A DNA stretch of 64,000 bases, taken from contig KV918761.1 of NCBI GenBank assembly GCA_002049455.2, positions 558,001 to 622,000 of the forward strand, read 5' to 3'. Source of the DNA: Porphyra umbilicalis. Lineage: Eukaryota; Rhodophyta; Bangiophyceae; Bangiales; Bangiaceae. The notes beneath the pieces are model-generated. The model saw only the letters and a list, made by a program, of their open reading frames with translations, was not told the DNA's origin and searched no databases. This document shows, one piece after another, positions 193-40,107 of this stretch (positions are counted from its first letter, which is position 1; every line of letters starts with the position of its first letter). The translations under genes and the position numbers were made by a program.

Positions 193-3100
193 TCATCGCT
201 CATCCGAGAAAGGCTCCCGATCGAACAACACAAAGTGCACTCCCTCTCGTTCCAAAGTCCCCACCACCGCGTCCATGGCGCCCGCAGGCGCATAGTAGCG
301 GACTCCATCAGCACTCAAAAAACAGTCAATGCCAAAACGTTGGGCTGGGTAGCCGCTCCGGCCGGCCCGGTCCTGCGCGGACTTGACCGGTGCGACATAC
401 GCAAACGCCAGCGGACGACCGTCAATGTGCACCAACGCATAATGTAGCACCGCGCCGTACGTTGAGACAGGTACTTCCACCACTCGACCGTCTCGCCGCC
501 GTCTCTTCTCCTTCGAATTAATTCGCAGGAGGTAATTCCGGCGGCGGTGCTGGGCCGAGTCCGAGCCGAGGGGCTTCGACCCAGAAATTGTCCCATCGGT
601 CAATTTGAGACGGAAGTACTTCATCGCCAAAATAGTAGACGGCAAGTCCGTGACACCTTCCGATGCAAGGGCCGCCCGCATCGCCGTCAATTCTGGTCCC
701 ACAAGCGGCGCCGCCAACACACGCGGCGGCAGTAGAGTCACCGTCCAGCGCCACTCTTGCCCAGACACTCCAGCAGGGAGCTCCACGCTGCCTCGGGGGG
801 CGCCCTCGCGCCGGCGCTCCTTCCCGGTTGCTGCTGCCCATTCAGCCGGTGCATAGGTTTCTCCAAATGAGGTGATCAACTCCGCCTGGATGCGCCGCGT
901 CACTGCTCCGGCGAGGTAGGCGCTTGGGTTCGAGTGGGAGTGGATGAGGGTCCCCAACTCCCCGACTTTGCGCTCGGCGGGAAACTGCCATGACGCCCAC
1001 ACCGGCCCGCTCGCCCGCATGCTGGGAACGAGGTCGAGCACAGCCGCAATGATTGACCTGCACAGCGGCAGGCGCTCATACGTCCCACAGTACACGTTGG
1101 TGTAGTACAGGTGTACAAAGCGCTTCAGGCGCGCCTCCACCGCCGTCAGCTCCGGCGCGGACAGACCTCGAGGGAGGAAGAGGACGCGGCAGGCCTTGCA
1201 CAGGGCCATTAGCATTTGGAAGTACACGTCCGGAATTCGCCGCACTAATTGGACTTGTGCGGTGGACACCAACCAGTACATCCAGTCCACGGCCTTAAAC
1301 GATCGGAATTGGAGGTCGATGTTTCGCAACGACCGCGCCTGCGCCATGGGCACCGTTCGCCTTGCCGCAACCATCTCGCGGCCAATCACCGCTACAGTTG
1401 CGGGAGACAGGACGTAATCTTCATTGGCCACGCCCTCCACTGGCACTTTGCCAGCAAATAGCTTCCATAGCAGCGGGGCCACGTTTTGCATCAAGAGATG
1501 CATAGCGTCATAGGGAGCGGCTGCAGGTCCGATACGCCACAGGTGCGACAAATGGGGATAGGCCTGCCGCATAGCGTTAGAAGGTGCAAAGAGCAGTGAA
1601 TGACCTTTGACTCCCGACTTCTTCGATAGGGCTTTTTGGAAGGCCAAGGATCGTCCGATTGACCTGGCCTCCTCAACCTCATCCGCGTCCCGTTGCATCC
1701 TCTCGGCGGACCGTCGCGGCACGGTACAGCCCTCGATGGAGAAAAGGATCTCGCCACTAGTCGGGTCCCTTGGAGGGAAGTAGTGGTGATTGCTGGCCGC
1801 GTGATACACCCCGTGAAATTCACGACTCCGGCTCGGGGAATACCCATTATACCCCGTGATATTCAACAGAATATCGAACGCCGACATGTCAGCCGTGAAT
1901 TGAACCACATGTGCTCGCACAGTGCGGAGTTGGGAGGATCCAGCAATGCGAATGTCCGGAATTCCGCGCGCAAGCTGGTTCAGCTCCGCCACGAGAGGGT
2001 GCAGGAACGAGTCCAAGTCGACAGGCTGTCGCGGGCCCGGAGTAATCGCAACGACAATCTGGCAGATATTGCGTGTCCGTACACCCGGCGATAGGTTAAG
2101 TACTGTCACGATTATCGGCCAGCCCTGAAATCCTCTTTGGCGCCATGCCTCAAAGCCGTCCGTAGACACGCTCAGGGCAATGTCGGTATCTTCATCGAAG
2201 AGTCCCGCGCGCAGCGCCTCAAGAAAAGTCAGGCCATCATGCCAGTCGTGCAGCCCCTCCCTTTGCTTCCCATCAGAGTTCCTGCTGGCTGCGCTGCGCG
2301 CTTCCTTCATGCCGGCCATCATGTCAGGACCCAAAATTGGGTCGCTCAGCATATTGATGAGCCAGGCAGTCAGGGGCCAGTAGGTCATCTGCCGGGCCGG
2401 CTTGCCCGATGCCGTGTATCGCGCGGTGCCGCAGGCGTCGCACGAAGTCAGGCGTGACCGTTTGTGCGTGAAGGCGACGCAGCCGTTCAGGCAGCAGTCC
2501 ACCTGGCGCTTCTCGACGTTTACGCTCGCCTCGATGAACTTTCGCATGAGGTACGGAGTTCGGTACTTAGCGTCGCATGAGCTCAGCTTAAGCAGATCCG
2601 CGAACGCCTCCTCAGACAGCCCATGGTTGACGGCGTAAGTAAAGAGTGCCAAATCTTTGGCACACTCTCCAAATTGATCCACCGGCAGCTGCACCTCGTT
2701 AAAGCTTACAGCATCCTGCATGACAGGTTCCGGTGGCCCAATCGGAAGGGCGGAGTCAGCAGCGGGGTCCTCCACAACGAAAGCGGCGGGAGGCACGTCG
2801 GTGGAGTCCTCAGAATCCACGTCTGTGCTCGCCACGCTGCTCTCGTCGCCTTCACCAGCCCGACCCACATGTTGCTTGGCACGGAGGGGGCTATCCTCGC
2901 TGCAAGCAGCGGCCCCCCCTTCAGCCGTGTGGTCAGGTCCTGGTGGAAAGTCCTCGCCCGCGGCCCCTCCCCCCCCCCCCCCTCAGAGCCCCCGGCCAGT
3001 CCGACCGGAGGCTCGTCCCCATCTGACGCTGTGCTGCTACCAGCGGGGCCCATAAGACCTCCGCTGGCGACACGTCCTTCTGACAGCCGTTGTCGCTTAA

Positions 3101-3206
3101 TCCGCTGGTGGCGGAACCACGTGCGCTTTGATACCAGACGAGGAGGTTCTTCACCATCCGCCGTGCAGGCGTCGCACTCGCACAGGCGCCAGTCGTCAGG
3201 AGGCAT
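193..3206 (-). CDS. tnp2 (CACTA/EnSpm-type) transposase, one frame break
   Basis: Likely DNA transposase of a CACTA-superfamily element, about 1,000 residues. The start at 3206 opens with a short Cys/His-rich module (CECDAC, then LVSKRTWFRH) typical of the N-terminus of tnp2-family proteins. A low-complexity acidic linker follows, then a CxxC zinc-finger-like segment (CCLNGC...CDAC). The transposase core contains VSTDGFEAW, GWPIIVTVLNLSP and, further on, PYDAMHLLMQN, which are the conserved Asp-containing tnp2 blocks. Frame 3206 must be joined to the main frame at a C14 run on the plus strand (2969-2982), where one base appears to be missing; the downstream frame is open without a Met from there. 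The C-terminus ends normally at 193. No CACTA/TAGTG termini could be identified. Family assignment is confident. Whether it is active is unknown. Confidence 0.8.
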
Positions 3207-5731
3207 TGTGCGTCAGCACAGGGACAGGACGGGGACCTGAGAGAGAAGGGGAAGGGGGGGGGGGCAGCAGGGGACTGGGGGGGTGTGGGAAGGAGGGCGG
3301 GGGAGCAACAGGAGACAGGGAGGGCGTGCGAAGGGGAGGATTGGTGGGCAGCAGCGCCCGGTGGCGTCCGCTCGGGGCGACGGCGTGGCCGCACCAGTGG
3401 GATGGCGATCAAAAAAAAACTGGCTGCGCAAGAACAGGGGCACCGACTTTATAGACAATCGCCGAACGCTCTGGTCCAATAGCAAGAGGCCAGGGCGTCA
3501 TCCCCTGGAATGCAATCAGCTTGCGAGTTTTGTAGATGCTTTACAGCACGTGTGCGTCTGCGAAGCACACGTCGTGGGAAAGGGACGGCCCAAACAGTGC
3601 ACCTGTGAGCGAACCAGAGCGACGTGGCCTCGCCGACCCGCGATTTTCAGACACCCAGTCGAGCGATATGCCTTCACTAGCCTTTACAGCCCCCTTCAGC
3701 AGGGGTACCCTGAGGGGGGTGGTGCCCACCCGCGATTTTCGTCAGGAAATCCGCGATATCGCGGGTATATTTCTTGTAGGGGGGGGCCGGATGCATGCCG
3801 ACGGCTCCAATCCTCAGAGTGCCGCCGTCGAGGCGTCCATGGCAGCGACCACCCGGCGGGTTGCCACAACTCTGCCACGGGTAGCCACGGTGTTCAAGTG
3901 TCTTGGGCACGAAAACCCGTGGGGCCCCAACAGCTTGTACCATGCATGGTCTTCGTCTCATCACCCAGATGGGGGGGAGTACGACGGGCCCGAGGGCGCC
4001 CAAACCATCTGAACCGTACCGAATTGTGCGCACCGGTGACGAGTGTGGGCGCAACGGCGAGGCGGCAGCTCGTAGCAGTCGTGAAAATCCATCCGGTCCT
4101 CTGTCGCAGCGCCCGCACGTTGCCGCCAGGGCGGTGCAGGCCGGGCTTTTTTCCACTGGTACCACAGTGAACGGGCGGTGCGCTGAGGTTGTTGGTGTCG
4201 TCGTCGCCAACGGGTGAGTGACGAGCACTGGGTCATCGAGGCCGCTTGGGGAGGCGCGGTCGCCCGTGTCACACACAGATCAGGCCGGGGGCGCAGTTGA
4301 GTTTGGCACCGGCAGTGGGTGTCTGCCCACTCATCACGCTGCCTCAGTTGGAAAGCCAGTGGCAAGCACGAATCGTACGGAAAATGCCTGGAAGGCGCGG
4401 TCCAGCGGCAACGAAGTTCGCGCGTCAGCGGGCTCGACGTCCGCAAAGTTCTGCGTCACCAGGCTATTTCCCTGGCCTTCAGGACAGGGTGCTCTCAAAG
4501 TGTAGTGATGCACACATATACTTAGATCATGGGACTTTCTCTCCGTTTCAAAGGTGGCAGTCTGCATTCGTGTCCTCAGGGATCTGAGGGCTTGTCAGCG
4601 TTGGAAGGGTCGCGATGACGCTAAAAGCGAATATAGTTACGTGGCTCAAAAGGGCTGTCCTGCCGCAGGGGTCACAGGGCCCGGACGGCGCCTGCCCCCC
4701 TGCCCCCCCCAACCGCCTCGAGTTGCGCGCGGCAACCGACTTCCGGGGTTCGAAGCGCCCACGATGACCCGCGGATGACCGTGCCTGCGCGCCGGCTTCT
4801 GTGGCGGCGGCGCGTCGGCGGTTGCTGACGCCATCTACCGGTGCGGTTAGAAGAGCCCGGTCGCGCTGTGATCGATCCCATCCGCCCGCCCGTGCGCCGT
4901 GTCGGCCGCGCGCGGGTGCGCTGCGCGGCGGGGTGACGGCCCCGCCCGTAGGCGTTGCACCACGCCGGCGGGCCGCCGCAACTGCGGCGGCGGCGGCGGC
5001 ACCCCTTTCCTCGTCCCACGCCTCCCCCGCCACGGCAACGTGGCTGTTCGTGCCCCCGTGCGTGCTCACGGCCATGGAGCCGGCCGGCGTACCCGGTGTC
5101 TATGCGTCGCCAAGCGCGCCACCGCCCTGAAGGCCAGGGTATTGCACGTACGTGCCTGGAATTAGTTGCGCAGTGTTGTCGTCATCCTCCACGAGTTCAG
5201 GTAAGTTTTGGCTCTTGTGGCGCTGCAGTCGGGATGTTCACCGGCCGGAAACCGGCGTCTGTTCCATCGAAACGCCAAAATGACGCGCCACGTTGAAATT
5301 TGTGTTCAAGCTGATGGACGGAAAGCGGAGTCGAGCCGTCGTCATTCCACCGTCGCCGTATCCGGTGGGTGATACGGCCTTCTGATTGGGACACGGCCTC
5401 CGAAATATCTCTCTTGCCGCCGCCAACCAGGCGGAAGACTGGTTGGATCCGGCATGCGCGAGACCCGGGGCCAGCTTGGCGGCACCGCGGCAAATGACCG
5501 CCTATTGCCCCTGCGCGCGAGCTCTGGCACGCACACAGACGCCCCCTCGTCGTCGGCGGAGCCGCTCGTGAACTTGGTGGTGTTGGGCATTCACTGCTCT
5601 GCACAAGCGGCCGACAGCACGTCTTCCCCTTCCCCGACACGCTCGCAGTTGTCAGTCCCTGCCCTTTGCCTCTCGCCCACGTGCCATCGCACAACGCCTC
5701 GCCCTGCCCCCTCGGCCACCTTGTCCCAACG
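3207..5731. other. gene-free stretch with small palindromes
   Basis: I see no convincing coding region here; the open frames are short, compositionally biased and without recognisable motifs. It presumably contains the 5' part of the tnp2 element and the promoter of the downstream SHMT gene. Small exact inverted repeats occur at 3546-3570 (ACGTGTGC / GCACACGT arms) and 3751-3764 (CCGCGATATCGCGG). Confidence 0.4.
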
Positions 5732-7561
5732 ATGGCGGCGTTCGTTCCCACCGCGGCCACAGCCAGCGCCTTTGCCGGTGCTCGCGTGCGCACGGCGGCG
5801 GCGACCCGCTCGTTGGTCTCCCCCACCGCCGTGGCCGGCCGCGCTACGCCGCGTGCGGTGCTCAGCGCGCAGCCGTCGGCGGCGGTCGGGGCAGGCGCTG
5901 GTGATGCGCCCGCGCCGGGTACTGTCGGCAGCGGCGCACTGCCGCTGGCGGAGACCGACCCGGAAATGTACGAGCTGCTGCAGGCGGAGCGGACTCGTCA
6001 GCAGCGCGGTATCGAGCTGATTGCGAGCGAGAACTTTACTTCGCGGGCGGTGCTGGAGGTACGTCTGAGGGTGGGCGGGCGAAGGGCGGGGTCGAAGGGT
6101 GTGCGGTCATTGTGCGAGTTGTTGGAGAGTGGCGTGTGGTCTTTGTGGTCTATGCTGGTTGTTTGGAAGGGATGTGTTGTCACCTGGCAATGAGGCACGT
6201 GTGTCTTCGCTTCCCTCACAGACTCAAGGAAGACTCACCTTGTGTGATGTACTGTTGCCCTAGTGTATTTTGTGCCTTTTTGTTTCACCCTTCTCTTCTT
6301 TTACGTTTCTTGGTCTCCTCCCTGATAGACTCTAGGGTCGTGCCTCACCAATAAGTATTCAGAGGGCTACCCCGGCGCCCGCTTTTATGGCGGCAACGAG
6401 GTCATTGACAAGATTGAGTCGTTGTGCCAGTCGCGCGCCCTGGCGGCTTTTGGCCTCTCCCCTGACGAGTGGGGCGTCAACGTGCAACCGTACTCTGGGT
6501 CGCCCGCCAACTTTGCGGCCTACACAGGCCTGCTTAACCCCCACGACCGCATCATGGGCCTGGACCTCCCCTCTGGTGGTCATCTGACGCACGGCTTTTA
6601 CACGGCCAAGAAGCGGGTGTCGGCCACGTCCATCTACTTTGAGTCCCTTCCGTACAAGGTCGACTCGGCGACCGGGCTGATCGATTACGACGCGCTCGAG
6701 TCGAATGCGGCGGCCTTCCGCCCCAAGGTGGTCATTGCCGGGGGCTCGGCGTACCCGCGTGAGTGGGATTACGCCCGCTTCCGGTCGGTGGCGGACCAGT
6801 CGGGCGCGTACCTGATGGTCGACATGGCCCACATTTCGGGGCTTGTTGCGACCGGCGTGGTCGACTCGCCGTTCCAGTACGCGGACGTGGTCACGTCGAC
6901 AACCCACAAGTCGCTGCGGGGCCCCCGCGCGGGGGTCATCTTTTACCGCAAGACCCCGCTCGCCGCCGCTGGGGAGGGGGTCAACATGGCCGAGGCCATC
7001 AATGCCGCCGTCTTCCCGTCGCTCCAGGGCGGCCCGCACAATCACCAGATTGGCGCCCTCGCCGTGCAGCTGTCTGAGGTTGCCACTCCGGGCTTTGTGG
7101 CCTACTCCCACCAGGTGGTTGCCAACGCGCGCGCGTGCGCGGCGACGCTCATGGGCCACGGCTACAAGCTCGTTACGGATGGCACGGACAACCACCTGGT
7201 GTTGTGGGACCTCCGGCCGGCGGGCGTGTCGGGCGCCAAGATGCAGGCGGTGTTTGACGCGTGCTCCATCACGCTCAACAAGAACTCGGTGCACGGCGAC
7301 ACGTCGGCGATGAACCCGGGGGGCGTGCGCATCGGCTCACCGGCCATGACCAGCCGGGGGCTGGTCGAGGCGGACTTTGAGCAGATTGCCCACTTCCTCC
7401 ACCGGGGGGTCGTCATTGCACAGCAGGTGCAGGCGATCAGTGGGAAGAAGCTGAAGGACTTCCTACCCGCCCTCGAGGGTAACGCGGACGTTGCGGCGCT
7501 GAGGGACGAGGTCGAGTCATTTGCCGAGGGCTTCCACATGCCTGGACTGCTGCAGGAGTAA
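5732..7561 (+). CDS. serine hydroxymethyltransferase, probably organellar
   Basis: PLP enzyme that interconverts serine + tetrahydrofolate with glycine + 5,10-methylene-THF. It has two exons: 5732-6058, a 270-bp intron with GT (6059-6060) and AG (6327-6328) ends, and 6329-7561. Both exons are in phase 0, giving 519 residues. The ATG at 5732 starts a roughly 70-residue Ala/Thr/Arg-rich extension ([16 protein letters not shown]...) resembling a transit peptide, so plastid or mitochondrial location is likely. The catalytic part is complete: [16 protein letters not shown] runs across the splice into [20 protein letters not shown]. The PLP-binding lysine is K303 in [14 protein letters not shown], followed by [13 protein letters not shown]. 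Length and motif order match the family fully. Which organelle it serves cannot be decided from sequence alone. Confidence 0.96.
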
Positions 7562-8084
7562 GGGGTGTAGGCGTGCGCAAGTGCAAGACTAGGAGATGCG
7601 AGTGCAAGAGAGAGAGGGCCGGTGCGCGGCCGCTGAGCAGACGGAGAGTTGGTGACTATGGACTGGCGGAGGATCACCCGTTTTGTCACCTGTATTTTAC
7701 CATCATCCATGTCCGCTCGCAGCGAAACAAGTGGTCCTGCCTTTGCACAAGCGCGAGTAGAGTAGCACGGGCTTGCGGAGTAGAGCAGCACGACGTGCCA
7801 CGGCGTGCACCGCAGTCTCCTGCTCTTTCCTATTGTTGGCTGCTCCGGACCGGGTCACGGGAAAGATCAGTGCGATCAACAGCCTCAGCCACCATTTGGG
7901 CAGCCTACACCCAATCGGCCAATGAGAGTTGGTCTGGAATTTGACGACCTTGACAACATCGTCAAAGTTTTCGAAGACGGCAATACAAAACCAGTTCGGA
8001 CCACCCACCTTGATCCGACTCGAACCCCCCGCGTCGAAGCGCACCGCTCCCCGTCCCCGTCATCCATGGCACTGCCCTCATCCA
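7562..8084. other. intergenic region between SHMT and SETD9-like gene
   Basis: The stretch holds the SHMT 3' flank and the 5' flank of the next gene. No coding segment or RNA gene is supported. Confidence 0.4.
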
Positions 8085-10106
8085 ATGTTGAAGGCCTTCT
8101 CCGCCGCTCGGCGGCTGCTGGACGCGTCCGCCGCGGCTGGGCGGGCCCCATCGCCGTCGGCGGGCCGCGCCGCGCAGCTGCGCGCCGACACCGCTGCGCT
8201 GTTCCGGCTGCTGCCGCGGCGCCCAGGCGGCAGGTACGGCTCGAATTGGGGTGGTGGCTGGGGGTGGTTGTCGCGCTCAGGGGTGGCGGGGGTGGTGGTC
8301 GCTGTGTATATGTAGGGCGCTGGTGGAGGTCTCTTTCCTGACGTGGGCTCTCGGCCGGTCTGTTCACTGCTTTCCATCTCGCTTGGTCCCGTACGTGGCG
8401 CCGCTGGCCGTGTTTTTTTTTTATAACTGGTGGCGTCTTGTTTGCTCTGCGGCGCTCGGCGCAGAGAGGAACCATCAGCATCAAAGGGCCTGATTCCACC
8501 CGCGTCCACGGATGGCGACCCGTCACCCGCAATACCTTCGGCGCCTGCAGCAGACACAGATGGAGCGAGGCCGACGATGGACGTGCCCTTTGAGGTGCAG
8601 GTACGCTGCGGGCCCTACAGCGTCGATTTACGTTTGTTTCTTTGCATCAGCACGCCCTTGGTGGTGCTCTCTTCACACGTTCTCTGGGTCTCTGACCCAC
8701 GGCTGGCCTTGCTGCTGTTCCCGCTTCCCCTCCCGTCACGTGCGTGTCCCCTCGGTCCGTGTCCTTCCTCCCACCTGCACAGGCCGCCGCCGTCCGCGCA
8801 CACCTGCTCGCGCAAGCGACCCACCTGCTAGCGGCTGTCGACGCCGCGTCGGCGCCGTCAGACGCGCACCCAACGGCGCAGCTGTTGCCGCTCCCCCCCC
8901 GCCCCCCCCCCCCGGCCCCGTGGACGAGGCGCACGCGGCGGCGGCGCCCGAGGATGGGGACGAAGCGGAAGCGACCGCCCGCGTGCGGTCCGTCCTCGGG
9001 TGGGCCTTGGCCAAACGGCCAAGCACCGTGCCGTCGGCGTCGGCGACGGGGGGGGCGTCGGCCGAGGCGGGGGGCGGGTGGGACGCGGGGCTCGGCGTCG
9101 TCGTCACGGGGCCCGTGCGCGCGGGGCACATGGTCGCCTGGTATCCGGGCGTGGCGTACAGCGTGGGGGACTTGAGGGGTACGTCGGCGGGGGGGGGGGC
9201 GCTGGGGGCATGGGCTTCGTGTGGTTGGGGCTAGGGACAAGTTGCGCGGACGTGGGGGTGGGGCTCGTTGGTTGCAAGGGAGATGCGGCGGAGGGTTGGT
9301 GCGTTGCGGGGGTGCCCATCGCCGACTGGCGGCCGGGGCGGACCCTGATGCGGCTATCGTAGCGTCCGTCACTGACACTCCTTGTCGTACCTGGTCTTGG
9401 TCTTGTACCTCTTCTCTGCCCCTGCCCCTCCTCCCTCCCGCGACCATGTTCCGCCCGCCCAGCCATGCCCGACTACCCCAACATCTCCGCGGCCAACTCG
9501 TACCTCTTCACCCGCTACGACTCGACCGTCCTCGACGCCAAGCCCGCCAACGCCCCGACGCTCATGCGGCCCGACGGGGAGGCGGCGGCGCCCCCCCCAG
9601 GTGGCGCCACCGACGCTGCCACCGCGGCGCCCCCCCCCGCCCCCCCCGCCGAGACGGTCACGTGGGAGCGGCTCAATCCCCTCGCGCTCGGGCACGTGAT
9701 CAACCACCCCCCACCGGGGCGGGCGCCCAACGTGGCCCCCTTCCTCCTCGACGTGCCGTCGGCGGGGCTGCCGCCGCACCTCGCGCAGCTGGTGCCGGTC
9801 GTGGCCTACCCGCCCCCGCCGTCGGCGGTCGCCCGCCGCCTGCGGGCGGCCGTGGAAGCCGCCGCCATCCGGCGGGTGCCGGGCTTGCACGCCCTCCTGT
9901 CGGGGGGGGGGCCGACCGGGTGGGGCGGCGGCCCCCCGGGGGGGGGGGGGGGGGGGACGTCGTGCGCGCCGTGGCGATTGTCGCGACGCGCCCGTTGGCC
10001 GAGGGGGAGGAGCTGTGGATGGACTACCGGTACCGGGGGGGGGGGACCGGCCCCCGTGGTACGCAGACGTGGGGGGGGGGGGGGACGCTGGGCGCAGGGC
10101 GACTGA
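8085..10106 (+). CDS. SETD9-like SET-domain protein, four exons, several frame breaks
   Basis: Likely protein-lysine methyltransferase of the SETD9 type. The exon model is 8085-8233, 8465-8600, 8783-9178 and 9463-10106; all junctions have GT/AG and compatible phases. Recognisable blocks in order are GVVVTGPVRAGHMVAWYPGVAY (exon 3, like the VVSMYPGTVY block of SETD9), then MPDYPNISAANSYLFTRYD, NPLALGHVINHPPPGRAPNV and finally VAIVATRPLAEGEELWMDYRY. That order matches the family. The frame breaks occur at G/C runs: C8/C12 (8893-8913), G19 (9938-9956), G11 (10035-10045) and G14 (10071-10084). Each is repaired by one extra base. After the third break the frame reads PPWYADV, a plausible family-like tail, and the stop at 10106 is then reached. 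The start codon is the first Met in the exon-1 frame and is less certain than the rest. Confidence 0.72.
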
Positions 10107-18755: not shown

Positions 18756-20217
18756 TTACTCATCGTCCGACATATCGCCCGCACTAAAATCATCATCGTC
18801 GTCATCGGTGCTGTCCTCCTCTGGCTCCTCGCCGGAGTCCGGCTCGTCGCCTGCCTCCGACCCCTCACCCTTGTCCGCGTCGGCCTTTTCGCCGTCGCCC
18901 TCCTTGGCGGCCGGGGCGTCCGCAACCGCCGCACCGCCGTCCTTGGCGGAAGCGCCGTCGGCCTCGTCCACCCCATCCTTGTCGCCCCCCCCTGCCCCTC
19001 CTCCTCACCCGCACCCTCCTTGTCCGCGTCCTCCTCCTCGTCGCTGCCATCCGCGACGACCCGCCGCGCCTTGGGTTTACCCTCGTCCGCCGCGGCGGCG
19101 GCGCCGTCCGCCGCCGCCGCCGCCGCCGCCGCCGCTTCGGCTTCATCTTCCTCCGCCTTGAGCAGCTCGTCGAGCACGTCCACCGCCGGCTCGGTGTACG
19201 AGACGGGCGTCGACCGCCGGCGGCGCCCGCCCGCCACAATGTTGCCACTGTCGAGGCCGCCGAGCAGCTCCCGTCGCTCCACTTCCTTCTTGGCCGCCGC
19301 CAGCTCAGCGCGCCCCGCGATGAGGGGGTCCCCCCCATGCCGGCCTTTTCCTCGAGCAGCCGCCGCAGGCGGGCGGCCTTGGCGTCCGCGTCGCGCAGGC
19401 GCGACGTGGACAGCACCGCCGATCGGCGGGAGAGGCCGACCGCCGACACCACGTCGAGGAGGCGCGCCACGGCGTCGTTGCCGCCGCCGCCGCCGCCGCC
19501 GCCACCGCCGCCGCCACTGCCGCCGCTCGTCCGCCGCCGCTTCTTGGCGGGGCCCCGCGTGCGGGACCCCCCGGCGGGGCGCTTGCGCTCGACGGCCGCC
19601 TCGGCCGAGGTGTCGGACGCGTCGGCGCCGTCGCGACGCGCCCCGTCGGCCGCCAAGGAGCCGTCCGAGTCGGCCTGGTCGTCGCCCGATGCGGGGGTGC
19701 GCTCCCGTTTGGTCGGCGCCGCCGCGCCCTCCTCCTTCCCGTCGTCTTGGACGGCCGTCGGGGCGGCCTTGTCGCCCTTGCCATTGGCACGAGCCTTGAC
19801 CGTCGCACCGTCGTCCGAGCCGTTGGTGTCAGTGTCCTCGTTGACACCCTCGGTAGAGGCGCCTTTGGCAGCGTCCTTGTCATGGCCGCCGCCGCGCGTG
19901 ACGTGCGCGCCGTCTGCGCCTCCCACCTTGACCGACGCCGCTGCGGGGGCACCACCACCGGCGGCCGCCTCGGCGTCGCTGCCGCCAGACGCCGTCTTGC
20001 CCTCTGCCTCGCCCGCGTCCCCCGCCTGCGCCGCCATATACGCGTCTACGGCCGCCCGCACGACTTGGCGCAGGGGTTTGCCCTCGAGCCCAACGTCTGG
20101 CAGCCGCTCCCGCACCTGCACGGCGAGCATCTTGACGGTGACGGTCGACAGGTCGGCGGCGGCGAGCAGCTTCTTTACCTCGTCCGCCACGAGCTGTCCT
20201 CCTTCGGTGGCCGGCAT
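18756..20217 (-). CDS. CHZ-domain histone chaperone (HIRIP3/CHZ1-like), two frame breaks
   Basis: Probable nuclear H2A/H2A.Z-H2B chaperone. The start at 20217 gives a helical N-terminal domain (ADEVKKLLAAADLSTVTVKM...LRQVVRAAVDAYM) like the DEK-C/HIRIP3 N-terminal module. A long charged, disordered middle with a lysine/arginine cluster (GPAKKRRRTSGG) and a Gly run follows. The CHZ motif is recognisable as LDSGNIVAGGRRRR followed by PVSY. The C-terminus is a strongly acidic tail ending DDDDDDFSAGDMSDDE. Three reading frames must be joined. The breaks sit at C7 (19330-19336) and C8 (18985-18992) on the plus strand, each needing one more base. With both corrected the protein is about 487 residues and ends naturally at 18756. 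CHZ1 alone is the alternative label; function is inferred from family. Confidence 0.75.
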
Positions 20218-21868: not shown

Positions 21869-21938
21869 CGAGATCCACTGCGCAGGAGCACGCCAACGAT
21901 GAACACGCGCACCCCACGCAGCCCTCATTTGCCTGCCC

Positions 21939-24100
21939 TCACGCGGCACAACGCGCCACTCGCCGCAAGACGATCGCCATACCATCCAGTCTACCAATGT
22001 CCGGCGCCGACACTGCCAAGTCCGCCACGTCCCCCCCGCCGCGGAAGCGCAGCGTCACGCGCGCAGTCCCCGGTAGCGCCGACACCCACGCGCTCGCCGA
22101 GGCAAAGGTCAGCCCCCCCCCCCCTCCGAGCCGCCGCCGTCACCGTCGCGCTCCCCCACCCCCCCACCCCCCACCACGGGCAGCAGCACCGACGGAGGGG
22201 CGTCCCCCCACTCGTTGGTGAGGGCCACCCCCCCTGCCCACGGCGCGCGCAGCGTGTACGTGTCGCCGACGTCACGCGCATAAAAGGTGCCAGCGACCCG
22301 TCCGGCATCGTCTGCCCGCAGCTGTGCGGCGGCCGGCCGCGTCGCCGCCAGCGTGGCGGCGGCGGTGCCGTTCACGCCCGCCAAGCCGCCGCCGCCCGCC
22401 GCGGCGGCGGCCGCGGGTGCGAGCGCCAACACGACGCCGCCCGCGTCGGGGGCACCGTCAAAGCGCGCAACGAGGCCACAGGCGACGCCCTCAAAGGGAC
22501 CCGCCCACACGGTGGGGGTGATGGCCGTGAGGACGACGGGCGTCGTCGCGCCGAGCGTCGCGACGAGGGTGGAAGGGGAGAGGGGGGGGGGGGTGCCCCC
22601 CGCCGCCGCGTCACCGTCGCCGCCACTCGCCGCTGCTGCTGCCGCCGTCGCAGTTGCCGCCGCCGCCTCCGCCGCCGCTGGTGCCGGCGTCGGGAGGCTC
22701 AGCGAAAACGTGGGCCTACCCCCACCCCGCCCCCCGAGGCCGCCCGTCGCCACCCACACGCCCGCGAGGCGGGTGGCGGCGCCCGCCGGCACGGCCACGG
22801 GCGGCAAGGCGCACAGGCGGTCCGGGTCAACGTCCGCCCCCACCGGCAGCGGCGACGGGGTGGGCGTCGACGCGAGGGCGGCGGCGACCGCCGCGGCCTC
22901 CCCGCGAAACACGTCGGGCCGCAGGGCGCCGAGGGCGGCGACCATGGTTGCGTAGACTCGAGGAAACACGTCTGTCGAGGTGGCGGCGAGGAGCAACCCG
23001 AGCCGCAGCGACGGCACTCGGAGGAGGAGGGTGATGTAGCCCGCGTCGACCCCGTCGTGGAGGAAGACGGTGCGGTTGGCGAGCGTTGTGGGGAAGAGTC
23101 CGGCCCCGTATTGGGTGCCGTTGCCGCCGGGGGCGACACCGGCCGGCGGGCGCGGGGGTAGGCCAAACGGCGCTTGGGCGCGCGCCACGAGGTCCGCCCC
23201 GCCACCGAGGGTGTTGTTGCTCCAGTTGGCGTCCCACGCGGCCAAATCCGCGGCCGTGGAGAGGATGCCCGTCGAGCCAGGCGCCGTCCACTCGCGCGGC
23301 GCGCGCCGCAGACCCGCCAGTGGCGCGTCACCCGCCGCGCCGCCCGCCGCGGGGACGGACGCGTAGCTGTTGGCCAGCCGCGGGTAGAGGCGCCGCGGGT
23401 CCCCCCGCAGCTCCGTCGCGGCCATGCCCAGGGGCTCAAAAATGCGCGCGCGCAGCAGCGCCTCGAGGGGCACCCCCCCCGCGAGGCGCTCGAGGACGGC
23501 CGCGAGGAGGATGTAGTTGGAGTTGCTGTACTCCCACCGGGCGCCGGGGGGGAAGCGCAGCCGCGACTGCCGCGCAATGACGGCCACGGATCGGGCGCGG
23601 GGGATCTCCCCGAGGTCCTCCCACGCCGACAAGCTCAACACGGTCGGCATGTCCCGCACGCCGCTCGTGTGGTAGACGAGGTGGTGGAGCCGCAGGTCCG
23701 CGCCGCCATACGCGGGGAGCTCTGGGAGGTAGTCCCGCACGGGGTCGTCGAGGGTGAGGTTGCCAGCGGCCGCCGCTTGAAGCACCAGCCACGCGGTAAA
23801 CTGCTTCGAGACGGACCCAACGTTGGTGCGCGTGGCGGGCGTCATGCGCACCCCGTTTTCCACGTCGGCAAAGCCATAGGCCGCACTGTGCACGAGTCGC
23901 CCGGCGTAAAAGACGCCGACGGCGGCGCCGGCCGTCGTGAGGTTGGCAAGCGGCGCATGCAGCGCCGCGAGCGCGTCCGTGTCGGGGGGGGTGTCGCCGT
24001 CGCCCCCACGGGCGGGGAGCGCCGCCGCCGCCGCCGCCGCGGCAGCCACGAGGAGGAGGAGGGGGATCGCCCGCAAACGGAGGCAACGCAGCGGCGCCAT
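21939..24100 (-). CDS. secreted serine hydrolase of the class C beta-lactamase/LACTB fold
   Basis: Start at 24100 gives a classical signal peptide (about residues 1-30: basic start, then LLLLVAAAAAAAAALPA), so the protein probably enters the secretory pathway. The beta-lactamase-like (Beta-lactamase PF00144) domain spans roughly residues 40-400. Its nucleophile motif S95-V-S-K98 and Y190-S-N192 match SxxK and YxN. The third motif is probably HDG in VFLHDGVDAGY. Substrates in eukaryotic members are mostly unknown (esters, D-peptides). The long C-terminal extension is Ala/Gly-rich. At a C12 run (22113-22124) the frame opens into an immediate stop. Adding one base instead continues through a further 57 residues (LTFASASAWVSALPG...) of plausible beta-strand sequence to a stop at 21939. 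The hydrolase call is firm; the extension is inferred. Confidence 0.85.
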
Positions 24101-30611: not shown

Positions 30612-30615
30612 ATGA
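30603..30615 (+). promoter_or_regulatory. near-ideal translation-start context of YJU2
   Basis: GCCGCCACCATGA surrounds the start codon, matching the eukaryotic consensus closely. It supports 30612 as the initiator. Confidence 0.7.
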
Positions 30616-31178: not shown

Positions 31179-31212
<34 letters not shown>

Positions 31213-31904
31213 GGGGGGGGCGGGGGAGGAGGGGGGGGCCGTCGACCTGCTCGCCGCCCAACAAGCGGAAGCGGACGCTGACGCGGCCGATGCGGCCGCT
31301 GCGGCGGAAGCGTTTCGCTTGCACCGCGAGCGGCAGCGGGGCGGCGGCGGCGGCGCCGCTGCCGCCGACGCCACGGCACGCGCCGCGGCCGCCGCCCCCA
31401 CCGCCGCCGCCGCCGCGTCCGCGGGCGCCGCCGCCCCCATGGCGCCCCCCCCCCCCCCCCTCCCCCCCACCAAGGCCGCGGCGGCGCGCCCGCCGTCGGG
31501 GCGCCCCCCCCGGCACGCCCCCCCCCCCCCGCCGCCCCCGTGTGGGGCGCCCCCCCCCGCGGCCCGCCAACGGTCGGCGGGGGCCTCAACTTGTCCCTCG
31601 CCGCCCTGCGGTCGGCGGTGGGCGGGCGGGCCAAGCGGCCGCCGACCGCCGCGGCAGCGTCGCCACCGGCGGGCAAGGCCGCCCGTGTGGAGGGCGCGGG
31701 GGGGGGCGGGCGCCGCCGGCGACGGCAACGTCAACGGCAGCGTCGACGGGTGCGGCCGCGGCTGCGGGCGGGGTGGGTGCGGCTGCGGCGACGGCTGCGG
31801 CTGCGGATGCCGGTGGGGGCGCAGGGGCGGCGCCAGCCGGCGCGCTGGGCGCCCTCGCCGGCTATGGCAGCGACTCGTCGTCGTCCTCGTCCGACGCTGC
31901 GTAG
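30612..31904 (+). CDS. YJU2: pre-mRNA splicing factor YJU2 (CWC16/CCDC94), three frame breaks
   Basis: Spliceosomal protein that promotes the first catalytic step. The N-terminal 130 residues are unmistakable: MSERKVLNKYYPPDFDPSKL, then CDGCGEYMYAGRKFNARKV, the second Cys pair in FKCTACAATVSVRTDP, and VESGATRNFQPW. The two CxxC pairs form the zinc site. A helical charged region then leads into a poly-Ala tract. After this the best coding frame changes three times, at G runs 31211-31238, C13 (31518-31530) and G9 (31698-31706). Each change is repaired by one added base, so the final segment (LGALAGYGSDSSSSSSDAA) is back in the starting frame and ends at 31904. The middle contains LLAAQQAEADADAADA and GGGLNLSLAALRSAVGGRAK, which read as real protein in their own frames. 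Confidence 0.9.
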
Positions 31905-32187: not shown

Positions 32188-35100
32188 TCAGTGGCGGGTC
32201 CGCCCCGTCCGTTTCCGCTTGCCCCCCCCAGAGCGGCCGCCCGACCGGTCCGGCTCGGGGCCAGACGCCCGCGCGCCCTGCATGCCGTCACGCAGGTCTG
32301 GGGGGCCGTTGGCCGACCCGCCGCCGCCGCCGCCCATGCGCCCCATAATGCCGCTGCCGCCGCCGCCGCTGCCGCCGCCGCCGCCGCTGCCGCCGCCGCC
32401 GCCGCCGCGGGGGCCCGGTGCGCCCGACGGCGGGCGGCCACGGTCGCTCCCCCCCCCACCCCCCCCCCCCCGCCACCGCCCCCCCCCCCCCCCCGCCGTC
32501 GCCACCACCCCCGCCGCCACCGCGGTCGCGTGGGCGGTCCCGGTTCCGCTCACGGTTCCGCTCGCGGTCCCGCTCACGGTCCCGCTCGCGGTCCCGCTCC
32601 CGGTCGCGGTCGTGGTCGCGCTCCCGCCCGCCACCCGGCGGCCCGCTGCCACCACCGCCGCCACCGCCGCCAACGCCGCCGGGGCCACCTGGCGCACCGG
32701 GCAGCGGGTAGGGCACGTTCAGGGGGGGGCGTCCGCCACCGCCGCCGCCGCCGCCGCCACCCCCCGCGCCGCGCTCCCGCCCCGGCCGCTCCCGCTCCCG
32801 CTCCGCGTCGCGGTCGGGCCGGCGCTCCCCGTGATCGCGCTCGCGGTCGCGGCCCCGCTCTGGCAGACGCTCCCGGCTGCCGCGCGGGGACGGCCCGCCG
32901 CCGCCGCTGCCGCCGCCGCCGGGTGGCAGTGGTGGCGACGCCGCCGACTGGCGCGGGTAACCGCCGCCGCCGCCGCCACCGCCACCACCCCCCCACCCCC
33001 CCCGTCCGACTCGCTGCGGCCGCGCTTGGGCGCGGGCGGGTGCTCCTCGCCACCCCCGCCCGACCGCGCCGACGGCCGGAGCCCCCCGCCTGGTGGTCCT
33101 GGCAGCGGGGCGGTGGGGTAGCTGCCGCCGCCGCCGCCGCCGCCGCGCGGCGACGCGCCAGGCGCTGATGGGGGGCGGTCCGACTCGTCGCGCGGGCGCT
33201 TGTTGCGGCGGCTGCCGCTACCATCGACGGGCGACGGCGGCGGGCCGCTGCCGCCACCCGCCGGCGGTCCGCCACCACCCCCGCCGCCTCCGCTGCCGCC
33301 ACCGCCGCCGCCGCTGCGGGCCAGCGGCAGCGGCGGCGGCGGCGTCGGCGGCCGCCGAGGCGACGGCGCACGCCCCGGCGTGCCCGCCGCCGCAGGCGGC
33401 AGTGCCGGCGCGGCCGGCACGGCCGCCCCCCCCCCGCCAAACTCAACACGTCCCCCCCACCGTCGTCGACCGGCCGCGGTGGCCGCGGCGGCAGCGGCGC
33501 CGGGGGCGTCGCGGCCGCCGCCCCCCCGCCGGCGGCGCCAGCGGTCGCCGCCTCACCCCGCCCCCGCAGGTTGCCGCTGCTCCCAAACTCGCGGCCGCCC
33601 CCGCGGCTGAGCGACGACCGCCGCGGGTCGTGCTCGCGCTCCCGCTCCCGCTCCCGTTCCCGATCGCGCTCACGGTCGCGGTCGCGGTTGCGGTCCCACT
33701 CGCGCGAGGGCGGGCCGTCTGGAGGGCCCCGCTCCCGCTCCCGCGTCGGCGCGTCGGGGCGCTCCCGCGGCGAGCGGTCGGGGCGGTCCCCGCGGCCGCT
33801 GCCTACGCTGCTGCTGCGACCGGCGGGGGGCGGCGCGCCTCGCGGCGACGCGTCGGTGCGCGATGGCGGGCGCCCGCGGAGCGGCCCACCGCCGGGAGCA
33901 GAGGAGCCGCCACCGGTAGAGCCCCCCCCACCCCCGCGGCCATCGCCATACGTCTTTGGCGGCGCACCGCCAGACTTGACCGACGCAACGACCGCGTCGG
34001 CGAGGAGTTTGCCGCCCGCCGCCTTGATGGCGCCGCTGCTCGCGTCTGACCGCTCCCCGCGGCGGGACCGGTCGTCGCTGCGGCTGCCGCCGCCGGGGAG
34101 GGACGGCCGCGCCTCGCGGGCACCCCCGCCGCCGTCACTGCCGCGGCCAGACGGGCCATTGCGGGGGCGCTCGTCGGGCTCGGCCTTTGTGCTCCGCCAG
34201 CTGCTGCCACCGTCGGCCGGCTCGGCCTTGGCGCCCGACAGATGGCGGCTATTGTCGGCGCCGCGGGCGGAGGCCGGCGCGGGCGGCCGCTCGTCGGCGG
34301 GCGATTTCCGCCCGACACCGCCGCCACCGCCGCCGTCTGCCTTGTCGACGGCATTCCGAGCGCCGGCCTTGACGCCACCGGCACCGCTGCCGCCCGCCGA
34401 CGGTACTGATACGGCGGTGGCACCGCCACCGCCGCTGCCGCTCGCCGCCGCTGCCGCCGCCGCTGACCCATCCGCCACCGCCACCGGCGGCGGTGCGCAG
34501 CCAAAGGCGGCCGGGTCGAGCAACCCCCCCATCGCCGACGGCTTCTTCTTGAGGTGCGCCTCGTACGACAGCGTCATCAGCTTGATGTCGTCCATCGAGG
34601 CGGCGGTCGCCGCGGACCGCGCCCGCTCCACCGCCGCCGTCAACGACACGCCGTCGGCGGTGCGGCGCGGGAAAACGTCGACGACCACGGAGAGGACTTT
34701 GAAAGCGTTGCGGAGGAGCATGTACTCGGTCGAGTCCCCAATGGCGGCCGCAAACGTCGATGCCAGGCGGCCGTGGACGCCGGCGAGCCACTCTGCGTAA
34801 GCCACGTGGGGGATGGGGGCGGCCGTGGCACCCGGCGCCGGGGGGCTGACGTCGGCCGATGCGGGCGCGGGCGCCTCGGGGGTGGCGGCGTTTGCCGCCG
34901 CCGGCGGGTCCGCCTTGGCCGCCGCCGCCGCCTTGGCCTCGGCCGCCTTGCGCTCCGCGGCGGCCGCGTAGCCGACAGCCCACGCCGCCCGCTGCTGGCA
35001 TTCGGCCACGTACGCCTTGCGGTCGGCGCGCCAGCCCTCCAGCATGCGCAGCAGGTCGCCCAAAAAGCGGGAAAAGCGACTCGCCTCGCCCTCGGTGCAC

Positions 35101-35874
35101 GAAAAGAGCACCGGGCCGAGGCAGTCGGCCAAATCGTCGAGCAGCCGCACCACATCCATGCCCGGCACGTCAAGCGCGACAGCAACGGCGACAAAGTCGG
35201 CCGCCGCCCGCGCGTCCCCGTGCGACACGACCGCCCGTGGGAGGAGGCACGTCGACAGCAGGGCACCCATGGAGCGACCGGGCGCCGTCACACCGCCGAG
35301 GAGGTGGCCTTTGCGAACGGCCAGGCGGGAGCGCACCGCCGCGACGCGGGCGGTGCGCGCGAGGAGCTCCTCCTCGACCGACCGCACGGCGCCGCGGGCG
35401 CGGCGGGCAGCGGTTGCCGCGTCGCCAGCGGCGGCGCGCGCGTCGGCGACCGCCGCCGAGCTGCCACCGCCGCCGCCACCGCCGCCACCACCGCCGCCGC
35501 GGGACAACTCCCGGTCGACGGCCGACACCGCCGCGCGGGCGGTGCGGGTGGCCAAGTCGGCACGCTCCTTTGCCGCCCGCGCCTCGGCCGAGTAGAGGCG
35601 GCGGGGGACGACCAAGTCGCCGGGGCGGAGCGCCCAAAACGTGGCGTACAGCTCGGGGGAGAGCGCCTCCCAGGTGGCGGGGGGGAGCATCGACGCGATG
35701 CCGTGGAGGCTCAGGATGGGGCTGGGGGGGCCCCCGCCGCCGCCGCTGTCGCCACCGCCGCCCCCGCCGTCGGCGGCGGCCATTGCCGAGCCCCGTGCCA
35801 CCCCGCGTGGGGTTTTGGGGCCGGCCCCGGCCCACGGGGACGGCCTCGGGGGTTTGCCCGCGTCGACACCTCCG

Positions 35875-35911
<37 letters not shown>

Positions 35912-38900
35912 TAGCGCCGACGCCGCCACCGGCGCCACCCCCGGCGCCACCCCCGCCGCCCGCTGTCGATTCGGGCGACGGCGCCCGCGACGCAACGGCC
36001 GAGGAGCACACGGACGAGTCGCGGCGCCCCCGCACGCGGCGGCGCGACACCATACACTCTTCGTCGCTCCCGTCGGCGCGCCGGGGCGTGCGGGCGCCGG
36101 CGCTGCCGCCGTCCCCCCCGCTGCCATCGTCGGGCATCCCGTCTGCGTCCGTGCCGCCATTCGTCGCGGCGGGGGGGGGGATTTCCCCCTCGCTGTCGGC
36201 GGGGATCTCCCCGTCGCTCGCCGCCCCGCCGCCATCGGCGGTGGTTGCGGCGGTCGCGGCGTCCGCGCCCGCGCCGGTCGCCGTACCGGCGCTGTTGACC
36301 TCCCCGTCCTCCACCGACTCGGCCACGTCCACGTCCATGGGCGCGGGCGCCGCGCCGCCGTCGGCGGACGCGGCGGCGGCGGGTGCGAGCGCCTTGGCCG
36401 TGGCCGTCGGCGGCGGGTCCACCTCCATCGCGTCGCCCGGCCCGTCTGCCGGTGGCGCCGCCGGCAGCGCCAACGCCATGTAGTCGAGCGAGTGGCGGTG
36501 CAACGTAAACGCCGCATCGGCCGGCACGTGCCACTCGGTGACGAGCCGGTGGACGGGCACGTCGGAAAGGCGGGAGGCGAGCGCCGGCTGGGTTTCTAGA
36601 AACGTCGCGTACTGTTGCAGCACGTCTTGGCAGCGGTCGTACAGGTCGCTGACGACCTTGAGTGGGGTGTGGCCGCCAACGTCGCCGCGACCCCCCGCAC
36701 CGCCGCCATTGGCGTCGCGCCCCACGCCGCCGCCATACACCACCTCCGTCCCGTACACGAGCGACGACCGCGTTTGTGCGACCGCCACGGGGAGGTCCAC
36801 GGCCAGCCCAGACGCCAGCAGCGCGCGGCGGAGCACGTCGGCGGCGCGGGCGCCGGTCGGGCTCCCCTGCCGCTCCCCATACAACCCAAAAACGCCCTCG
36901 GCTGACGCGGCCGTCGCCGGCGGCGGCGGCTCTGGCGGCGCCCCCCCCCCGGCGCCCCCCCCCCCTCCGCCCCCACCGTCGCCACGCCCGCCACGGCCGC
37001 CGCGGTCCCGCCCGTCTGGCGGCGGCGCCTTCACGTGGGACGGGGCGACCGGGGTGTCGGCCACCGCCGCGCGGAGGGCGGGCCCCGACGTGGCGAGCGC
37101 CAAGTGGCGGTCAGTCGGCTCGGCAATCACCTCCCCGCCGCCCATGCGGCCAATCATCTCGCGGAGGAGGACGAGCAGCAGCGCGTCGCCTGACCGCAAG
37201 CCCGTGAAAATCAAGTGCAACACGGGCTGCAGGTCGACGACCGCACTGTAGCGGCGGAGCAGCAGGGACGTAAACGTGCACAGGCCCGTGTACCACATGG
37301 CCACGTTCATGCCGTCGGCCTTGAGGCGGCGGCGGCCGCCGCGCGCGAGCGCGTCCACGCACGCGCACGCAAGCACGTCAAAGCCGAGGGCGTCGAGGTA
37401 GCGCAGCGCGTCGACGAGCGGCGCGACCATGTTGCCATACCGCTCCACGCGGTCGAGCAGCGACGCAAAGGCGGCGAGCGACACGGCGCGCGTCGCGGTG
37501 GCCATGCGCCGCCCATACTCCCGCACGTTCTCCTTGGTGACGCGCTTGAGGATTTGCCGCACGCCATTGACGCCTTCGGCGGCGGCGAGGGAGAGGAGCG
37601 GGTACGGGCGGCCGCCGTCGCCGCCGGCGGCGAGCGCCTCCACATGCCGGTAAATGGCGTAGCGGGTGGCGGGCGGCCACAGCGTCAGCGTCTCCCACAC
37701 GAGCGCGTCGAGGGCGTAGCCGGTGCGCGCGACGCACGCGCCGGGGAGGACAATGTCGGCGAGCAGGCCGGCCATCCCCGCCACGGCCGCCGCCGCCTCG
37801 GCGTCGGCGACAGACACAGAGTCGTCTGCGCCGTCACCGCCGCCCGACGGGCGGTGGCCACCCTTGGCCGCCGCCGTCGCGGCGTAGCGGACGAGCCGCG
37901 CGGCGCGAAAGAGGAAGCGCGACGACCGCCACGCGTGCGCGCCGAGCAGGTGGAGGACCGCCCACACGGCGGCCGCTGCGGGGTCCCCGCCCGGCGTTGC
38001 CGCAGCGGCAGCGGCGGCGGGCGGGGAGCCCGCCGCAAAAAAGCGCGTCACCGCCCCGGGGGTGGCCGGGAGGACGACCAAATCGCCGACCGCCGTGCCC
38101 GGCGCGCCCTCTGCAGACAGCGCGGGCGTGATGGCCGCCAGCTGCGCGTCAAAGGTGGCCGCCAGCGTCGCCCCCGTGACGTTGCCGCCGCCGCTGCCGC
38201 TCGACGCGGCCGCTTCCAGAGCGAGCGCCGCGACGCTGCGGGGTTGCTCCCGCTCCCGCGGGCGCGGGCCGTCCCCCCGCCGCCCGCCGCCGGCCGCGGT
38301 GACGCCGCCGCCGCCGCCGCCGCCGCGACCGCCGCCGACGCCCTCCCCCCGCCCCATCCCCGACGCGGCTTCCGCCACGCCGAGGAGGCCGCCGAGGGCG
38401 GCTTGGGCGGCGGCCGTCGCCGCCGCCGCCACCGCCGGGTCGGACCCCACGTCGACGCGGTCGCCGCCCGGCTCGGCGCGCACACGCGCCGCCGCGTCGG
38501 CGGCGGCGGGCCACGCGCCGAGGCGGAGGAGGAGGGCGATGAGGTCGATTTTTTGGCGGCCGCCGGCGGGGGCGGCCGCCGGCCACGGGCCGGCGGCCAT
38601 GGCCGCCTCGCCCACCGCCGACTGCTCCTTGGCATTGACCGCCGCGACGACCGCGGGGTCGGGCGTCCAGTCCATGCCGCCGCCGCCGCCGAGCGCACCG
38701 CCGCCGAGCGCCCCGCCCCCGAGGGCGCCGCTCAAGCCGAAAGCGCCCGCGCCGAGCGACGACGCCCGGTCGGCAACGGCGGTGGCATAGGCGGCCGCCG
38801 CCGCCCCAAGCGCGCCCGGCCTCGTTGGCGACAGGTGTGGCCACAGGTCGTCGGTCGAGACGGCCCCGGACGTGAGCAGCAGGGCGGCGGTGCACAAGAC

Positions 38901-39289
38901 GAGCGTGCGTGGGGGGGCGGGCGGGGAGCCGCCGGCGGCCGCCCGCCACTCGGCGCGCTCCCCGTCGCTCAGCCGCAAGCGCAGGCCGACTTGCTGAGCG
39001 ACAATGCCGGGCGGGAGCAGCCGCAGCACGTCGAGGAGGGGGGCGGGGATGGCCACCGACGCGGACGTGCCGTCGCGCGCGTCGCCGCCGCCGTCGCCGC
39101 CGCCGCACGCCGACGCGGCAGCGTCGGCGGCGGCGGCGACCGAGGCAGCGACGGCCGCCTCGGCAACGGCGAGCGTCAAGTCCATGACCCGCTCGGGGCT
39201 CAGCGCGTACGTGCCAATCAGGCGGGTGACGATCGACGGGAGCGTCTCCCCGACCGTGGCGGTGGCGGCGGCATCCCCGCCACCGCCGC

Positions 39290-39320
<31 letters not shown>

Positions 39321-39815
39321 GCCACCACCACCGCCACCGGCCGCGGCCGACGGGCCCCCCCCCCCCGCGCCCCCCCCCCCCACGCGAGCGCGACGAGGAG
39401 TTTGGCGTAGCCCTCGGGCGCCTCGCGCAGCAGCCGCACCTTGCGTTGGGAAAAGCGTGCGCGCGTCGTGGCCGTCGCGAGCGCCTTGGGCGCCACCGCC
39501 AGCCCCGCAAAGGCACCCGTCGCAGCCGGGTGCGCCGCCACCGCCGCCGTCGCGTCCATCTCCATCGCCGCCGCGGCGGCGGGGGGGAGCACCGCCGCGG
39601 CCGCGGCGAGGCCGGCCGCCGCCGCCGCAAGCGCGTCGACGCGGGGGGAGGGCCGTATGGGGGGGGCGCCGCCGCCGCCGCCGCCGCCGCCGGCGACGGC
39701 AGGGGCGCCAGCGGCAGAGGCGGCGGCGGCGGCGGCGGTGGGGGTGGGCGCCCCCGCCCCCACGTCGGCACCGTCACCCGCGGCGGGTGCGGCGGGTGCG
39801 GCGGCGGCAGCGGCG

Positions 39816-39847
<32 letters not shown>

Positions 39848-40107
39848 GAGCGCGGCGACGCCGAGGAGCCACAGCTCCGCCGCGAGCGACTCGCGCGTCG
39901 CTGTCGTGCCGGCGAGGGCGGCGACGAGGGCGGCAGGCGGCGGCGGGGCGCCGCCGTCGCTGCTGCCGCCACCGCCGTCGCCGCCGCCGCCGGTGGTCGA
40001 CGCGAGTGCCCGCCGCAGGGCGCGCACGTCGATGGCGGCGGCGGGGGGGGGGGGGGGCGATCGGCACCCGCCGGATCCGGCGGGCCGGGGGGGACATCTC
40101 CCGCCAT
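32188..40107 (-). CDS. THO2: THO complex subunit 2 (THO2/THOC2), several frame breaks
   Basis: Largest scaffold of the nuclear THO complex, which couples transcription to mRNP assembly and export. The start at 40107 (MAGDVPPGPPDPAG) leads through a break at G15 (40043-40057). The N-terminal block RARFSQRKVRLLREAPEGYAK follows, then a break at 39355-39381. The long central frame has diagnostic blocks: DALRYLDALGFDVLACACVD, MWYTGLCTFTSLLLRRY, LLREMIGRMGGGE, LYDRCQDVLQQYATFLE, WEALSPELYATFWALRPGD and LFSCTEGEASRFSRFLG. The C-terminal third is disordered and rich in Gly/Ser and RD/RE dipeptides. It changes frame at C10 (33426-33435), at 32988-33003 and twice in 32449-32494, then ends KRKRTGRTRH at 32188. 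All six breaks need one extra base. About 2,640 residues is long for the family, owing to low-complexity inserts. It converges on YJU2 with 283 bp between stops. Confidence 0.9.

Follow-up and report, generated by a model that had tools for sequence, protein, structure and literature searches.

In the assembled genome of the red alga Porphyra umbilicalis, several genes within a stretch of 64,000 bases (contig C1, positions 558001–622000; hereafter the window) appear to change reading frame at runs of G or C, which raises the question of whether these genes are broken, are decoded in an unusual way, or have been written into the sequence file with bases missing. An initial annotation of the window had counted about 17 such breaks in six genes between positions 2969 and 40057, all at G/C runs and each fitting one missing base, and had favoured systematic under-calling of homopolymers in the assembly (83.8 Mb in 665 contigs). 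Because the window genes had been picked by that annotation, we dropped window-only counts as sole evidence and added 20 random 10-kb loci, in which G+C content is 65.2% and G/C runs of at least 10 bases occur 43 times per 100 kb; a G+C content of 64–68% is reported for Bangiales and relatives, versus 37–57% for other red algae (PMC7423979). Among the matches listed, a literature search returned no paper that dealt with this assembly, and none on errors at homopolymers in Bangiales. Throughout, D denotes one base missing at a run, and I denotes one extra base or two missing bases.

Results

Detection of frame shifts by codon periodicity

Frame shifts were sought with a seven-state codon-periodicity hidden Markov model (HMM; one non-coding state, three plus-strand and three minus-strand codon positions) that has a symmetric shift prior and uses no homology. 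The model was trained first on the 20 random loci and then with the window added, its training sequences being the same as those later analysed. A per-event likelihood ratio against a short non-coding detour proved uninformative; the frame gain on each side of an event was used in its place, followed by expectation maximization (EM), and an event was called strong when the gain reached at least 20 nats on each side. When a base was removed or added at 60 of the 184 intact runs of at least 6 bases, 27 removals and 26 additions were called correctly, with one wrong-sign call each, corresponding to a power of about 45%; the shift calls are thus without directional bias.

The model found 12 strong events in the window, of which 11 fall at G/C runs of at least 7 bases (10 D and 1 I) and one, an I event at 63258, falls elsewhere. 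Nine of the ten D events at runs lie within 2969–40057 and the remaining one lies at 53962; the genes with shifts are those for a serine hydrolase, CHZ, YJU2, THO2 and a SETD9-like protein. With a flat prior on each run of at least 7 bases, the posterior exceeded 0.8 for D at seven window runs and for I at none, and the posterior for no shift was at least 0.93 at five window runs of 10–12 bases (at 14333, 14984, 22582, 36171 and 53885). The frame switches at G/C runs that had been described for this locus are therefore present, nearly all in one direction, but it is not the case that every long run is broken.

In the random sample there were 33 strong events, 10 of them at runs of at least 7 bases (6 D, 4 I) and the others elsewhere (12 D, 11 I); several of the off-run events lie within retroelement-like or repeat sequence. 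Pfam matches beside the sample events include an LSM gene, domains of a Ty3-type retroelement and weak matches, most of them below cut-offs, so that codon statistics are the sole basis of most sample events; some G/C-rich low-complexity stretches may have been labelled coding in error. We note that in the Ty3-type retroelement (L027:494–2604) the RNase H and integrase domains share a frame and a chromodomain-like stretch (weak, E 0.06) lies in another, with no long run at the switch, and that a C10 run before the LSM domain (L025:2618–2627) shows I, the opposite shift (one extra base or two missing).

Individual breaks in the window

In the tnp2 transposase gene (PF02992; match within 193–2982, E 7.3e-9), on the minus strand, the frame moves by −1 at a C14 run (G14 in the sense strand; 2969–2982). 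The HMM did not flag this break, which is supported by a one-base frame offset from related copies that stay in frame. In the plus-strand SETD9-like gene, the SETD9 label of which has no Pfam support, a G11 run at 9189–9199 is absent from the Viterbi events and has a posterior for D of 0.99 under the flat prior and 0.97 under the genome-wide EM; further downstream, a cluster of G10, G19 and G11 runs (9892–10045) holds at least one D (Viterbi D at 9910, gains 65/36 nats), its G11 at 10035–10045 having a posterior for D of 0.86 under the flat prior and the other two runs being ambiguous. The minus-strand gene at 18780–20240 has a DEK_C match upstream of its CHZ match, both scoring below Pfam cut-offs, and contains D events at a C8 run (18985–18992; gains 50/140 nats) and a C7 run (19330–19336; gains 79/65 nats), each with a posterior of 1.00; both of these runs are short, unlike the genome-wide pattern described below. 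Close to the 3′ end of the gene for the serine hydrolase, downstream of the domain (PF00144, E 5.6e-55), there is a D at a C12 run on the minus strand (22113–22124; gains 53/130 nats, posterior 0.94).

The YJU2 gene (PF04502, E 1.3e-57), on the plus strand, had been described as needing three shifts of the same sign to return to its original frame, and the HMM bears this out. The first break is a D at a G10 run (31211–31220; gains 104/36 nats, posterior 0.96), the second is one net D within a cluster of C16, C7, C8, C13 and C9 runs (31445–31558; Viterbi D at 31485, gains 68/28 nats, posterior spread across the cluster), and the third is a D at a G9 run (31698–31706; gains 20/28 nats, posterior 0.99), after which the first frame is regained before the stop. 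Because the Pfam match stops before the first break, all three YJU2 breaks rest on codon statistics. No second full-length copy of YJU2 was present among the matches listed (of 274).

The THO2 region (32574–39773, minus strand) has a G+C content of about 80% and an open frame of 2399 codons. Its 3′ part carries one net D at C10 and C7 runs (33426–33458; Viterbi D at 33445, gains 27/66 nats, posterior for D 0.56 and 0.41 at the two runs) and its 5′ part carries one net D at two C12 runs (39355–39381; Viterbi D, gains 96/80 nats, posterior for D split 0.32 and 0.47). These two C12 runs separate two frames that match THOC2_N: positions 274–395 of the domain lie in one minus frame (38897–38502; whole-protein E 2.3e-8), and positions 130–163 lie in the neighbouring minus frame (39487–39386), the latter match being weak (E 0.013) and below the Pfam cut-off. 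The minus-strand G15 run at 40043–40057, which ends the range of the initial annotation, has flat-prior posteriors of 0.02 for no shift, 0.55 for D and 0.43 for I, and gave a weak I in the earlier likelihood-ratio run. Outside that range, also on the minus strand, a stretch with C12, C7 and C8 runs (53885–53978) holds one net D (Viterbi D at 53962, gains 31/86 nats) with a spread posterior, the C12 itself having 0.93 for no shift, and a G16 run (54645–54660) shows I, that is, one extra base or two missing (Viterbi I at 54702, gains 72/40 nats; ambiguous under the flat prior).

About 11–12 breaks can be placed in the genes named by the initial annotation, rather than about 17, when the seven run-level D calls are counted together with the cluster-level events (the YJU2 C-run cluster, 33426–33458 and 39355–39381 in THO2) and the tnp2 run. 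No confident I was found in those genes, but the near-even D and I posteriors at 40043–40057, where a shift of one sign or the other is indicated, do not allow the strict claim that no base is ever in excess. Among the gene labels, SETD9 and CHZ are weak.

Shift rates by run length

Forward–backward EM, with shifts allowed essentially only at G/C runs, was applied to the window and the 20 random loci (21 loci). At coding runs of 10–14 bases the share of D was 0.58 (95% CI 0.49–0.71), that of I was 0.03 (0.01–0.07) and that of no shift was 0.39. The pooled log-likelihood of a D-only model exceeded that of an I-only model by 64 nats (21 from the window, 43 from the sample), and the excess of D is therefore more than chance. 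Fitted separately, window and sample agree at runs of 10–14 bases: for runs of 10–11 and of 12–14, respectively, the share of D was 0.40 and 0.54 in the window and 0.60 and 0.68 in the sample, with I at 0.00–0.11. By written length, the share of D was 0.04, 0.13 and 0.06 at 7, 8 and 9 bases and 0.40, 0.60, 0.71, 0.57 and 0.49 at 10, 11, 12, 13 and 14 bases, a sharp rise between lengths 9 and 10. At 15 bases the shares were 0.42 (D) and 0.34 (I), and at 16 or more they were 0.53 and 0.10; with I at just 0.10 in this last class, a deficit that grows beyond 14 is not well shown. The deletion bias seen at 10–14 is absent at 8–9 in the sample, which taken alone leans to I at runs of 8 and 9 (0.24 and 0.30). 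Under a symmetric prior, runs of 10–14 gave D 0.51 and I 0.11 where the sense base is G, and D 0.45 and I 0.20 where it is C; this similarity is as expected for an error at the level of DNA.

Individual runs with a coding weight of at least 0.95 were classified at a posterior above 0.9, using a prior of 0.9/0.05/0.05 for runs of 7–9 and a flat prior from 10 up (the EM values are independent of this prior). Among 66 runs of 10–14 bases there were 17 D, 2 I, 6 without shift and 41 unsure; among 145 runs of 7–9 bases, where the prior favours no shift, there were 110 without shift, 4 D, 0 I and 31 unsure; and among 24 runs of at least 15 bases there were 4 D, 3 I, 1 without shift and 16 unsure. 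These calls are partly dependent on one another, seven of the long-run calls coming from a single random locus (L019, positions 590 to 8611).

In the sample, runs of 5 and 6 bases already appear shifted, in both directions, at a rate of 0.18–0.21, so that each of these rates includes some noise from the model. A displaced control, placed 45 bases past runs of 10–14, gave D at 0.07–0.10 in the window and 0.21–0.25 in the sample, with I up to 0.18, and D at 0.26 for the class of 8. In our view the displaced positions take up some of the real shifts at the neighbouring run, which makes this control a weak one, and we therefore used a calibration in its place, in which known proportions of D and I were imposed and re-estimated. 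Imposed D/I proportions of 0.33/0.33, 0/0.50 and 0.50/0 were recovered as 0.32/0.29, 0.13/0.43 and 0.49/0.04, indicating that the estimator roughly returns the shifts imposed.

The tnp2 family as a natural experiment

The window copy of tnp2 (100–3781) has five near-identical copies elsewhere (L053–L057; 98.8–99.3% identity by aligned piece), which differ from it by 25–29 substitutions (0.7–1.2%) and by 0, 0, 1, 1 and 2 gaps; one near-identical copy is without the 5′ part. The frame-breaking run is 14 bases long in all six copies and the G11 run at 3254 is 11 bases long in all five copies that reach it, whereas the C7 run at 2913 is 7 bases long in five copies and 6 in one, and the A9 run at 3411 is 9 bases long in three copies, 8 in one and unread in two. 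That the length of the frame-breaking run is equal in near-identical copies indicates a process that is a bias rather than noise. Constant runs of 14 and 11 bases across copies that differ from the window copy by 0.7–1.2% would be unexpected if long G runs mutate fast.

Five more diverged relatives were fetched (C29, C63, C245, C79 and C22). In C29 and C63, neither of which has a run of 10 and both of which stay in frame, a downstream anchor lies at a distance of 313 (1 mod 3) from the start codon, whereas this distance is 303 (0 mod 3) in C245, in C79 and in the five G14 copies that have both anchors. The run-bearing relatives carry G10 and then G7 (C245), G12 (C79) and G11 (C22); in C22, at 2 mod 3, the alignment shows one base lacking at the run and another lacking elsewhere, along with a stop. 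In all, eight copies with runs of G10–G14 and a readable start (C245, C79, C22 and the five G14 copies) are one base short at the run, and among these tnp2 copies the offset is present where the run reaches ten. C29 resembles C63, and C79 resembles C22, in sequence, so that there are fewer tnp2 lineages than copies.

Split junctions in other genes

We fetched 14 split junctions, 10 chosen from kinase matches and four from chaperonin matches. Twelve of the 14 are introns with ordinary starts (GTACG, GTATG or GTAAG), in gaps of about 150–500 bp. A kinase gene on C339 changes frame at a G10 run with one base missing, and in a kinase gene on C3 the net change is +1 across a stretch containing G10 and G7C6, compatible with either two shortfalls or one excess. 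The chaperonin survey (nine loci, eight nuclear and one plastid) showed no break besides introns, which were present in four. Near one end of C165, at a distance of about 250 bp, a kinesin domain (L005) has one base missing in a short C run, which implies that deletion-type errors occur elsewhere too. A 3-kb duplicate with a kinase gene (C323/C33; L051, L052), at 94% identity, was too diverged for run comparison. The plastid contig, C665, is exactly 185,000 bases long and carries a red-type rbcL, the neighbours of which, judged by eye from translations of the fetched stretch, are presumably rbcS, cbbX and thioredoxin genes.

Discussion

Length-dependent under-calling of G/C homopolymers in the assembly consensus is very probably the best explanation of these frame shifts. 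The finding is thus real in the sequence file but most likely not biology, the genes with broken frames are most likely intact in the organism, and we infer that the missing base exists in its DNA. The consensus would write runs of up to about 9 bases mostly correctly, runs written as 10–14 would often be one base short of their true length, and longer runs would probably be one or two short; each shortfall would throw the written frame, so that intact genes look broken. Deletion-biased frame error, its increase with length and its independence of the transcribed strand, which under-calling predicts, were all observed. Taken together, the jump in rate at 10 bases, the mainly one-way shifts at 10–14, the similarity of sense-G and sense-C runs and the recurrence at random loci far from the window support the systematic under-calling proposed at the outset; of the original observation, the shifts and their direction are confirmed, and the number 17 and the strict one-way rule are not. 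Evidence against under-calling comes from the five window runs of 10–12 that are in frame, the CHZ breaks at runs of 7 and 8, lengths that are mostly intact, the I at the C10 run of L025, and the sample runs of at least 7, with just 6 D versus 4 I. If miscalling is the cause, the lack of scatter among the near-identical tnp2 runs means that the bias is nearly deterministic there.

Were the written runs true, the alga would have to add one base at long G/C runs in RNA, or its ribosomes would have to shift. The YJU2 gene, with no second full-length copy among the matches listed and with coding-like composition after each of three breaks, and the identity of the tnp2 run in six of six copies would be in keeping with such slippage. 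It would, however, have to act on sense-G and sense-C runs alike, starting at about length 10, and would need a matching one-base deficit in about 58% of coding runs of 10–14 while others of equal length stay in frame; a preference for one sense base, which one would expect of slippage though not strictly require, was not seen, G and C being similar. Known transcriptional slippage is mostly at A/T runs, and we know of no eukaryote with such slippage at G/C runs. We regard slippage as very improbable, and equally so the broader proposition that this lineage decodes G/C runs of at least 10 with one extra base as a rule, most long-run genes being encoded one base short, which if true would be a new genome-wide decoding rule. 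Only marginally less improbable is that the tnp2 break alone is a true feature of the family, which would either use the run as a slippage site or be a defective lineage mobilized by a different copy, the host breaks being assembly errors. The run of 14 in all six near-identical copies and the offset shared by three run-bearing relatives despite their other run lengths speak for this; both relatives that lack the run keep the frame, however, and since host runs of equal length show the same offset, no special cause is needed for tnp2.

Introns or gene boundaries misread as shifts would be a natural suspicion in a genome where 12 of 14 fetched split junctions proved to be spliceosomal introns. 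At the CHZ, tnp2 and C339 and C3 kinase breaks, however, the frame changes at runs with no intron-like gap, no GT..AG interruption being seen by eye between the frames, and introns would not favour runs of at least 10 or one direction, which leaves this reading with a negligible probability. We give as little credence to the idea of decaying genes in which the shifts are genuine mutations. Decay may fit the off-run sample events, which have both signs and in several cases lie within retroelements or repeats, judging by the sequence; the conserved genes THO2, YJU2 and a kinase retain codon bias beyond the break, however, and true slippage mutations should give both signs.

If homopolymer under-calling is the cause, users of this assembly should note that, of the coding G/C runs of 10–14 bases, about six in ten appear out of frame, and that gene models in its GC-richest regions are probably truncated or split. 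With frames broken at long runs, claims of gene loss or of pseudogenes in those regions are unsafe.

Transcriptional slippage that rescues a frameshift at a homopolymer would leave the same picture in the DNA; the present case differs in that the effect is of similar size at sense-G and at sense-C runs. Closer parallels are the errors described for long-read assemblies. In nanopore assemblies, indel errors stem mainly from confusion over homopolymer length (PMC7483855), and long homopolymers may also be enriched for errors in HiFi data (PMC7736813). For bacterial consensus sequences from nanopore R10.4, most homopolymers shorter than 11 bp are reported to be resolved, those of at least 10 bp being expected to "probably still be problematic" (PMC9262707). 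As proposed here, such indels lead to frameshifts in gene calling, with trouble from about 10 bases (PMC9262707); the cases published in these sources are bacterial and human, whereas the G/C-rich genome analysed here offers many more targets.
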